Assembly: GCA_015521615.1 (NCBI GenBank)
Contig: WANW01000036.1
Location: 1 to 39,878, forward strand
Source: Candidatus Hydrothermarchaeota archaeon
GTDB lineage: Archaea; Hydrothermarchaeota; Hydrothermarchaeia; Hydrothermarchaeales; BMS3B
Direction: 5' to 3'
DNA length: 39,878 nucleotides
Program-made: the position numbers and the translations under genes
The notes under the pieces: generated by a model
What the model was told of the DNA's origin: nothing
What the model saw: the letters and a program-made list of their open reading frames with translations, nothing else
Databases searched by the model: none
Shown: one piece after another, positions 35,322 through 37,945 of the stretch
How the letters are laid out: each line of letters opens with the position of its first letter
Position numbering within the stretch: the stretch's first letter is position 1

Positions 35322-36467
35322 ATGTTCGCGGAGATTGTGGAGGGCAGAACAAAGCTCCTGGTGCCGGAGCGCAGCCTTGTATCGCCCCAGGAGATAAAAA
35401 AAGCCCTGCCTCCCGTCTTTTTCAATCCGCGGATGAAGCTCAACCGGGACGTAACCTGTGCCGTCGTCAGGGCGCTCATCGCAGCTGGGGAGGAGGTGAA
35501 GTTCCTGGACCTGCTGGCGGCGAGCGGGGCGAAGGGGCTGCGCGTCGCCAGGGAGGCAAAAGCTAAGGTGCACCTGAACGACGGCAGCGAGAGCGCCGTT
35601 GAGCTAATAAGGAAGAACGCCGCGCTTAACAACCTGGAGGTGGGGGTGTCGCAGAGGGAGGCGAACCTCTTCCTCCTCTCCAGCAGGGGAAGCTTCAACT
35701 TCATAGACATAGACCCCTTCGGCACGCCCGTGCCCTTCCTGCACAACGCCATACTGGCGCTTCCCCCCCGGCGCGGTTACCTGGCAGCTACAGCTACAGA
35801 CACGGCGCCGCTCTGCGGCGTTTACCCCAAGGCGTGCTTCAGGAAGTACTCCTCCCTTCCCCTGCGCGGAGAGCTGTGCAAGGAGGTGGGGCTGCGCATA
35901 CTCCTTGCGACCCTTGCTAGAGAGGCGGCGAAGCTGCGCCGGGGCATGCGCGTTCTCCTCGCCCACGCCACAGACCATTACTTCCGTGCCATCGTGGTGC
36001 TCCGCTCAGGCAGGAAGCGTGCCGACGAGGCTCTCGCAAAGCTGGGCTACCTCTACTACTGCAGGGCCTGCGGAAGGCGCGAGTTCGAGGCATCACCGCT
36101 GCCCTCGAGGCGGGGCTGCGCCTGCGGAGAGGGTTACGAAGTTGCCGGCCCTCTCTGGCTGGGCGAACTTAAAGATGAGGAGCTCGCAAGGAGGGCGGCT
36201 GAAGAGGCGGCCTACCTTCAGGACAATCGCTGCTCTAAGCTGCTCGCAACGATAGCGGCTGAGCTGGAGGTGCCCTTCTTCTACGATGTGCACCACCTCG
36301 CGAGGCGGCTCTCTCTGCACGAACTGCCCCCAATGAGAAAAATCCTGGAAGAGCTCCATCGGCATGGTTACAGTGCCACAAGAACCCACATCTCTGACAC
36401 GGGTATAAGAACCAACGCCCCCTATGAGGTACTTCAGGAAGTGGTAAAAGGTCTGATTAAAAATTAA
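35322..36467 (+). CDS. trm1: tRNA (guanine(26)-N2)-dimethyltransferase
   Basis: This SAM-dependent enzyme makes m2,2G26 in tRNA. The 381-residue protein has the SAM-binding region LDLLAASGAKGLRVA (about 62-76) and the catalytic motif DIDPFGTPVPF (about 129-139). TATDTAPLCGVYP follows. A zinc-binding region CRACG ... CACG lies in the C-terminal third, and the C-terminal domain includes LHELPPMRKILEELHRHGY. Length and order fit archaeal Trm1. Its ATG lies one base after the ilvC stop, so the two are co-transcribed. Its stop codon overlaps that of the convergent zinc protein. Confidence 0.95.
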   Translation: MFAEIVEGRTKLLVPERSLVSPQEIKKALPPVFFNPRMKLNRDVTCAVVRALIAAGEEVKFLDLLAASGAKGLRVAREAKAKVHLNDGSESAVELIRKNAALNNLEVGVSQREANLFLLSSRGSFNFIDIDPFGTPVPFLHNAILALPPRRGYLAATATDTAPLCGVYPKACFRKYSSLPLRGELCKEVGLRILLATLAREAAKLRRGMRVLLAHATDHYFRAIVVLRSGRKRADEALAKLGYLYYCRACGRREFEASPLPSRRGCACGEGYEVAGPLWLGELKDEELARRAAEEAAYLQDNRCSKLLATIAAELEVPFFYDVHHLARRLSLHELPPMRKILEELHRHGYSATRTHISDTGIRTNAPYEVLQEVVKGLIKN

Positions 36468-36601
36468 ATTTCATCCTCCTCCTCACAGAACTCGCATTCT
36501 TCACTCGCCGGGTCTCCGCAGTTGATGCAGAAGTTATAACCACAGATTTTACACACGTATATATCCTCCACTTCTTCGCCGCATATCTCGCAGGTAGGCA
36601 T
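36464..36601 (-). CDS. 45-residue protein with four CxxC pairs
   Basis: The frame reads MPTCEICGEEVEDIYVCKIC, then GYNFCINCGDPASEECEFCE and EEDEI. CEIC, CKIC, CINC and CEFC give eight cysteines, enough for two zinc sites in a zinc-ribbon or treble-clef arrangement. The tail is acidic. A minus-strand TATA box (ATTTATATCC, about 36624-36633) is centred about 27 bp from the ATG, as for a leaderless transcript. Small archaeal zinc proteins of this kind are often linked to translation, but no family is recognised. It overlaps the trm1 stop by 4 bp. A longer overlapping minus-strand frame here has no sensible sequence. Confidence 0.8.
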   Translation of the reverse strand: MPTCEICGEEVEDIYVCKICGYNFCINCGDPASEECEFCEEEDEI

Positions 36602-36646
36602 AGCAAAAAGATTGTGCTGAGGGGATATAAATTTTGCCCGCGCAAA

Positions 36647-36670
36647 CTTCAGAAAGTTTGATCATCATAT
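36647..36670 (+). repeat. 24-bp direct repeat, copy 1
   Basis: The segment starting CTTCAGAAAGTTTGATCATC is identical to 36750-36773, with a 103-bp period. After a one-base difference the similarity continues into TGCGGTAT of the following hairpin in both copies. Confidence 0.85.
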
Positions 36671-36749
36671 ATGCGGTATTCAATACCGCCATGAAGGTGG
36701 TATCGCAGATACCACATTATGGCGATGCAACCGGCTGCGGTTGCGCGGG

Positions 36750-36773
36750 CTTCAGAAAGTTTGATCATCATAT
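36750..36773 (+). repeat. 24-bp direct repeat, copy 2
   Basis: This is an exact copy of 36647-36670. It starts at the last base of the outer inverted repeat and is followed by a shorter hairpin, so it looks like the start of a second, truncated unit. Confidence 0.85.
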
Positions 36774-36817
36774 TGCGGTATCTTGCGATACACTATGTTT
36801 GCCACGGAGACGGGTAA

Positions 36818-36826
36818 CATATAAAA
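36818..36826 (+). promoter_or_regulatory. TATA box for aroC
   Basis: CATATAAAA is centred about 29 bp before the ATG at 36851, consistent with a leaderless or very short-leader transcript that would exclude the upstream hairpin element. Confidence 0.5.
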
Positions 36827-36850
36827 AGGCAGGGAGTGAGAAGGATTAAC

Positions 36851-37945
36851 ATGCCTGGAAACACCTTCGGCAGGGTATTCAGAGTTACCACCTTCGGCGA
36901 GAGCCACGGCAGGGCTGTAGGAGTGGTGGTGGACGGCTGCCCTGCGATGCTGGAGCTGAGCGAAGCCGAAATACAGCGCGAGCTCGACCGTCGCAGGCCG
37001 GGGCAGAGCGCCGTTACCACGCAGAGGAAGGAAGAGGACAGGGTGGAGATTCTCTCAGGCATATACGAGGGCAAAACCACGGGTATGCCGATAGCTATGA
37101 TTGTGTACAACCGTGAGTATGACTCCTCAGCCTACGAGGAGCTCAGGTTCAAACCCCGTCCGGGACATGCGGACCTGACCTATTTCCTGAAGTACGGGCA
37201 CCGCGACCACCGCGGCGGAGGCAGAGCCTCAGGGCGGGAGACCCTTGGAAGGGTTGCCGCAGGGGCAATAGCCAAGAAGCTCCTCGCCACAATAGGTGTG
37301 GAGGTGCTTGCGCATACGGTGGAAATTGCCGGTATTCGCATAGACGAGGTGAGCATCGACGAAATAAGGGAAAACCCGGAGAAGAACCCGGTGCGCTGCG
37401 CCGACTTAGCCAAAGCCAGGGAGATGGAGGAGAGGATACTGGAAGCCAAGCGTGAGGGCGACTCCGTGGGCGGCGTAGTCGAGGTTATAGCCCTGAATGT
37501 CCCTCCTGGACTTGGCGAACCTGTGTTCGACAAGCTCGATGCAGATATCGCAAAGGCGCTGATGAGCATAGGTGCGGTGAAGGGCGTGGAGATAGGCTCG
37601 GGCTTCACCTCAGCAAGGCTGAGGGGCTCCGAGAACAACGACGAGTTTTTTGTTGAGGATGGGAGGATAAGGAGCAGGAGCAACAACGCGGGTGGCATAC
37701 TTGGCGGAATCTCCACAGGCATGCCGATAGTGGCGAGGGTGGCGGTGAAGCCCACGTCGAGCATAGCAAGGGAGCAGCACACCGTGGACCTGCGCACCAT
37801 GAGGGAGACCACCATTACGGTGAGGGGGAGGCACGACCCGTGCATTGTTCCAAGAGTTGTGCCTGTCTGCGAGGCGATGCTCGCCTTAACCCTCGCGGAC
37901 CACGCGCTTCGTGCGGGTGTGATACCCGCGACGCGGCTTGGTTAA
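36851..37945 (+). CDS. aroC: Chorismate synthase
   Basis: This last enzyme of the shikimate pathway turns 5-enolpyruvylshikimate-3-phosphate into chorismate using reduced FMN. The family text is clear throughout the 364 residues: [61 protein letters not shown], and near the end [30 protein letters not shown] 15 bases upstream is possible, but the ATG fits the TATA box at 36818-36826 and the usual N terminus. No other shikimate gene is in the window. mptA follows after 38 bp. Confidence 0.96.

Follow-up and report, generated by a model that had tools for sequence, protein, structure and literature searches.

A dispersed pseudoknot-forming hairpin unit, probably a non-autonomous mobile element, lies between a zinc-ribbon gene and aroC in Candidatus Pyrohabitans

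The stretch of archaeal DNA analysed here (39,878 nucleotides, hereafter the window; host genus Candidatus Pyrohabitans) carries two neighbouring host genes, one on the minus strand for a 45-aa zinc-ribbon-like protein (36467–36601, outside the element described below) and one on the plus strand for chorismate synthase, aroC (36852–37945, start set at the ATG of MPGNTFG...). An earlier note had reported an unusual cluster of hairpins in the gap between them, and its geometry proved accurate. The 10-bp outer inverted repeat (arms at 36636–36645 and 36741–36750, plus-strand coordinates) is 100% complementary, the four perfect inner hairpins lie at 36643–36660 (7 bp), 36673–36689 (8 bp), 36697–36715 (8 bp) and 36727–36744 (7 bp), the 24-bp repeat is exact, starting at 36647 and 36750, and the fifth hairpin is present at about 36775–36792, weaker than the other four. 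The 6-bp closing stem drawn around the four hairpins was reproduced by the DNA-fold centroid. Such crowding, which the note held to be beyond chance, was matched in none of 3,000 dinucleotide shuffles (four such hairpins in 156 bp), and nowhere else in the 39.9-kb window, outside the hairpin region, did 156 bp contain even three. Relative to dinucleotide shuffles, the fold energy of the segment gave z values of -4.5 for plus-strand RNA, -5.0 for minus-strand RNA and -4.6 for DNA.

The segment consists of three copies of one dispersed unit of ~55 nt, with U1 and U3 on the plus strand and U2 inverted. Each unit comprises, in order, hairpin 1 (7-bp stem, CWGN loop), the linker ATCANCA, a few bases, hairpin 2 and a tail. 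Hairpin 2 has the form GCGGTATY...RATACCGC in Candidatus Pyrohabitans and accounts for the GGTAT/ATACC theme that the earlier note had recognized in several hairpins, whilst the 24-bp repeat represents the conserved hairpin-1/linker core of U1 and U3. U1 (36641–36693, plus strand, covariance-model match 63.3 bits) contains hairpin 1, CAAACTT-CAGA-AAGTTTG (36643–36660), the linker ATCATCA (36661–36667), of which TC would pair with the loop GA in the pseudoknot proposed below, and hairpin 2, GCGGTATT-C-AATACCGC (36673–36689). U2 (36693–36746, minus strand, 68.7 bits) contains hairpin 1, GCAACCG-CAGC-CGGTTGC (36727–36744), where loop base 4 and linker base 5 are both C and unpaired, and hairpin 2, GTGGTATC-TGC-GATACCAC (36697–36715). 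U3 (36744–36797, plus strand, 54.5 bits) is partly degenerate: the 5' arm of its hairpin 1 comes from the outer repeat and includes G-T pairs, and its hairpin 2 is imperfect. The whole composite element spans 36639–36797, with no strand assigned, and is flanked on the plus strand by TTTGCC at 36633–36638 and 36798–36803, a sequence that occurs once in the corresponding empty site of the congener G004 (CTTTGCCGGCAGG...). At 6 bp, this repeat is too short to prove a target duplication and may be a coincidence.

Many dispersed copies, which the earlier note had named as a mark of a mobile element, were found in the window's own genome, in congeners and in other phyla. We counted 14 units at 9 loci in the window genome (G000) and 12 units at 9 loci in G001 (both at E < 1e-6). 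With a covariance model derived from 24 units, the unit was detected in 13 of the 20 genomes of the order (E <= 0.1). These genomes are mostly fragmented assemblies, at least partly MAGs, so that the copy numbers given are minimum values, and copies at contig ends (e.g. G015:C98) could in some cases be misjoined. Across 297 archaeal genomes, the same model gave strong multi-copy matches in genomes related to that of the window at no level below the domain, namely in f21 (15 units in G288, 8 in G254), f27 (whose unit-bearing genomes are complete and about 1 Mb in size), f102 and f105. Single weak matches in G145 and G182 are probably due to chance. There was no Rfam match at the gathering score (4,227 families), only weak C/D hits, and no match in INPHARED, PLSDB or, by exact patterns, IMG/VR, on which ground a phage, plasmid or IMG/VR origin was rejected. 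The published open-licence papers searched held no description of the element.

Compensatory changes, which the earlier note had put forward as support for a structured RNA, occur in the stems of both hairpins. In the alignment of 24 units, standard pairs filled 98% of the cells across 17 pairs, and 9 of these 17 had changed on both sides, a result equalled by 0 of 500 shuffles. Among 70 distinct cores from several phyla, all nine pairs (seven in the stem, two in the pseudoknot) had changed on both sides. Loop base 4 of hairpin 1 covaries with linker base 5, with Watson-Crick combinations in 63 of the 70 cores (0 of 1000 shuffles), distributed as A-T (39), T-A (20) and G-C (4) beside G-T (2) and other states (5). 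This pair is kept in 32 of 33 distinct units from other phyla, the lone exception being G-U; next to it, G3-C6 is replaced by A-U or G-U in some units, and in an all-against-all column scan the loop-linker pair (columns 11 and 23) ranked fourth, among the stem pairs. U2 of the window is among the few units in which loop and linker do not match. Linker column 22 and stem pair 6-13 are also linked, more weakly, in the way that a groove contact would produce. From the loop-linker covariation we infer that the unit forms an H-type pseudoknot when single-stranded, the hairpin-1 loop pairing with the linker 3' of hairpin 1, and that it is recognized in this state as either RNA or ssDNA, between which the G-U counts do not decide. 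Two RNA identities were considered and rejected. A box C/D sRNA on the minus strand (TGATGA...CTGA) was discarded given that fixed C (RUGAUGA) and D (CUGA) boxes are lacking, the C-box-like letters varying with the loop (TGTTGA, TGGTGA) and the loop itself alternating between CTGA and CAGA, and that Rfam gave no match. A hammerhead-like reading of CTGATGA was likewise set aside, as position three covaries and a GAAA partner is lacking.

A pseudoknot forms only in a single strand, which argues against the earlier suggestion that the segment is a multi-site target for a regulator of the zinc-protein gene and aroC. The palindromes do lie between two divergent TATA-like boxes, as judged by eye, an arrangement that could suit either a target of a regulator binding double-stranded DNA or a cluster of terminators. 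However, palindromes in double-stranded DNA cannot yield loop-linker covariation, the same unit is found at unrelated loci, and in G004 the corresponding gap lacks the element. Both versions of this explanation are therefore very improbable and largely refuted. The locus differs between congeners, being empty in G004, occupied by U1-U2 only in G001 and by U1-U2-U3 in the present genome. In the G004 gap, the TATA-like boxes of the zinc-ribbon gene and aroC stand back to back, ~25 bp apart; in the window they are ~190 bp apart (36615–36830). This wider spacing may change both promoters, and the window copy, lying in the divergent promoter region of the two genes, is probably without a function of its own there.

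Of the 18 loci in G000 and G001, ~12 adjoin a tRNA gene (one judged by eye at a contig end), an adjacency with a chance probability of about 4e-20 when 46 tRNA genes with 170-bp flanks, ~1% of the genome, are assumed. Hairpin 1 forms exactly one end of the element and, in Hydrothermarchaeales, abuts a second copy of the 3' part of the tRNA, running from the T-loop to just past the 3' end, with duplications of 16–22 bp at tRNA-Ser, Val, Lys, Gln and Leu. The 5' counterpart, in which the tRNA start to the D-loop is duplicated, was found in G017 (22 bp) and G011 (16 bp); a tRNA-Val 5' end with 22 bp is among the duplications recorded. Protein genes, assigned by ORF reading, are also targets: a 16-bp duplication at the top6B/top6A junction of G011 restores both the topoisomerase VI B stop and the topoisomerase VI A start, and in G015 the C-terminal codons of histidine kinases are duplicated over 44–50 bp. 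Further duplications were seen in G151 (43 bp) and G254 (about 46 and 48 bp). The target duplications anticipated by the earlier note for a mobile element are thus present as direct repeats of 16–50 bp at many loci. The tRNA-Lys locus carries the element in G000, G001 and G002, whereas G003, G004, G005 and G007 have an empty site there, with a single copy of the 3' part of the tRNA. Units of f27 sit directly against the 5' or 3' ends of tRNAs, with hairpin 1 toward the tRNA, and many adjoin tRNAs without visible duplication. Four f27 units were located within tRNA introns, two in tRNA-Trp (L173, L181) and one each in tRNA-Arg (L176) and tRNA-Thr (L182), which suggests that some archaeal tRNA introns stem from the element. 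In G225, a unit is situated between a tRNA-Ala gene and the apparent 3' end of 16S rRNA (L153:171-221). Two regularities that had appeared informative were abandoned. Co-orientation with the host gene held in Hydrothermarchaeales but failed in G151, G288 and f27, and was dropped as a mechanistic clue, whilst 5' truncation of the kind left by target-primed reverse transcription was rejected because short tails may be later deletions and the G001 tRNA-Lys orthologue has a full tail.

Flush placement at tRNA 5' and 3' ends and within introns, together with RNA-like pseudoknot covariation and G-U variants on the strand that reads hairpin 1 first, would also be compatible with a duplicated host RNA module, such as a tRNA-linked processing or stability element whose pseudoknot is selected for RNA function. 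We consider this unlikely, given that copies at 5' and 3' positions lie on different strands with respect to the tRNA, congeners lack orthologous copies, target duplications are present, copies occur at protein gene ends too and no Rfam family matches. Stems and linkers have also decayed in some fixed copies (pair 1 in G000:C84, the linker in G003:C119), as expected of a structure that benefits mobility and not the host. The structured RNA proposed in the earlier note stands in part: the compensatory changes are strong and include those of the pseudoknot, but no single gene is linked to the structure, which goes with the element and has decayed in some fixed copies.

Identity blocks from the T-loop to the tRNA 3' end are typical of the tRNA integration sites of tyrosine recombinases. 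The duplicated tRNA parts resemble such blocks, and tyrosine recombinase integrases are encoded in G000–G004, as well as in G009, G010 and G015. The copies might accordingly be deletion relics of larger tRNA-integrating elements, in which the duplicated tRNA part would be the att identity block, with arm sites of the recombinase in the hairpins. This origin is improbable, however, since no Phage_integrase was detectable in G011 (93% complete) or G006 (99%), both of which bear the unit, the same compact, cargo-free unit recurs across phyla, 5' ends and genes other than those of tRNAs also have such blocks, and IMG/VR, INPHARED and PLSDB returned no match. The contigs that gave G000 and G001 their best integrase matches carried no unit. 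Integrase was absent from G017 also. Other candidate movers gave a similar picture: no Y1 transposase was found in G000–G003, G006, G009–G011, G015 or G017, no Cas1 in G000, G001, G003, G006, G009 or G015, and no TnpB in G000, G001, G003 or G011, whilst reverse transcriptase was found only in G016, itself without the unit. None of these five enzymes follows the element across the order, and each is taken to be an unlikely mover. In the part of the contigs searched for such an arrangement, no pair of units flanked a transposase. As a separate observation, G005 and G007, which belong to the same family and are free of units, are the only genomes in which TnpB is abundant, with 27–31 matches, and a further 13 Y1 matches were found in G007, whereas unit-rich genomes have few or none of either.

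Dispersed copies, target duplications and empty sites together favour the REP/MITE-like mobile element that the earlier note had listed among its options. We interpret the segment as a composite of three non-autonomous mobile elements, each a MITE/SINE-like pseudoknot hairpin element of about 60–170 bp, and assign this reading a probability of roughly 0.7. Putative machinery acting in trans would recognize the pseudoknotted end as ssDNA or RNA and join it to a target, mainly tRNA gene ends (T-loop to 3' end, or 5' end to D-loop) and splice junctions but also protein gene ends. Staggered joining would duplicate 16–50 bp of the target and leave the gene intact, and duplications of this length would allow the host gene to survive insertion. 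The mobile-element reading is weakened by a duplication length too variable for a standard transposase, by the lack of a mobilising enzyme among the five sought, and by f27 copies without duplication, the mere 6-bp repeat at the window copy and the fragmented assemblies. A bolder version, to which we give somewhat less than even odds, is that the unit represents an undescribed archaeal mobile-element family spanning several phyla and consisting only of a pseudoknotted terminal hairpin, a variable hairpin and a tail. Such a family would be recognized single-stranded by widespread, perhaps housekeeping, machinery and would insert at tRNA ends and splice junctions with long duplications, creating tRNA trailers, leaders and introns. 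If true, this would add a SINE-like or mitochondrial-DHE-like class to Archaea, with a new transposition mechanism.

Comparison with known systems yields partial likenesses. Casposons are archaeal elements that insert at the 3' ends of tRNA genes or of genes for elongation factors and duplicate about 14–15 bp of the target. They and their non-autonomous forms share the archaeal host, the tRNA 3'-end insertion and the duplication with the present unit; however, G000, G001 and G003 lack Cas1, the unit's duplications measure 16–50 bp and it has no TIRs. Like REP/RAYT elements, mobilised by Y1 HUH enzymes, the unit is dispersed and extragenic with a hairpin core, but unit-rich genomes lack Y1, target duplications are present and no GTAG-type foot motif was seen. 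MITEs of bacteria and archaea are similarly short, gene-less, dispersed, hairpin-forming and intergenic, with target duplications. Unlike them, the basic unit has no terminal inverted repeats, its hairpin standing at one end only with no matching right end; only the composite U1-U2 is inverted, the duplications are long and variable, no partner transposase was found and the end is pseudoknotted. Integrative elements that target tRNA genes by means of tyrosine recombinases also leave a partial tRNA duplicate beside an intact tRNA and share the link to tRNA introns, but the unit carries neither cargo nor integrase, is only 60–170 bp long and is, as a hairpin unit, the whole element. The nearest published case found, otherwise different, is a Caldiarchaeum tRNA-Thr disrupted by a 1.8-kb recombinase-bearing element that leaves a tRNA fragment (PMC3293823). 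The double-hairpin elements, GC clusters and repetitive hairpin-forming elements of mitochondrial DNA are described as tiny, ORF-less, multi-hairpin mobile repeats with no known mobiliser (e.g. PMC4478555, PMC2800124). In all these respects they resemble the unit, but they are mitochondrial and, as far as known, unrelated in sequence. The unit works in the manner of MITEs or of mitochondrial double-hairpin elements, but owing to the lack of terminal inverted repeats, a known transposase and a fixed duplication length we file it with neither.

Small gene-less mobile elements of archaea have been little described so far. The present one can be traced across phyla by a 26-nt pseudoknot core, whose loop-linker covariation provides a built-in proof of structure. 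Since it marks tRNA ends and introns, it offers a testable route to archaeal tRNA leaders, trailers and introns, and it points to a mobilising activity that would be constrained by single-strand recognition and long, variable duplications.

Variation among copies extends beyond the core. In L085, L076, L092, L095 and other Pyrohabitans copies, the unit leads into a shared tail that contains a palindrome (AAGGGGAGGGGAATTCCCCTCCCCTT-like), and the units of G011 carry a hairpin tail of different sequence, ending in GGNTAT. At a second composite locus (L002, L035, L036, L064), hairpin 1 of U1 has been swapped whole between species, reading CAAACTT... in G002 and GCAACTG... in G000, G001 and G003, which suggests gene conversion or reinsertion.
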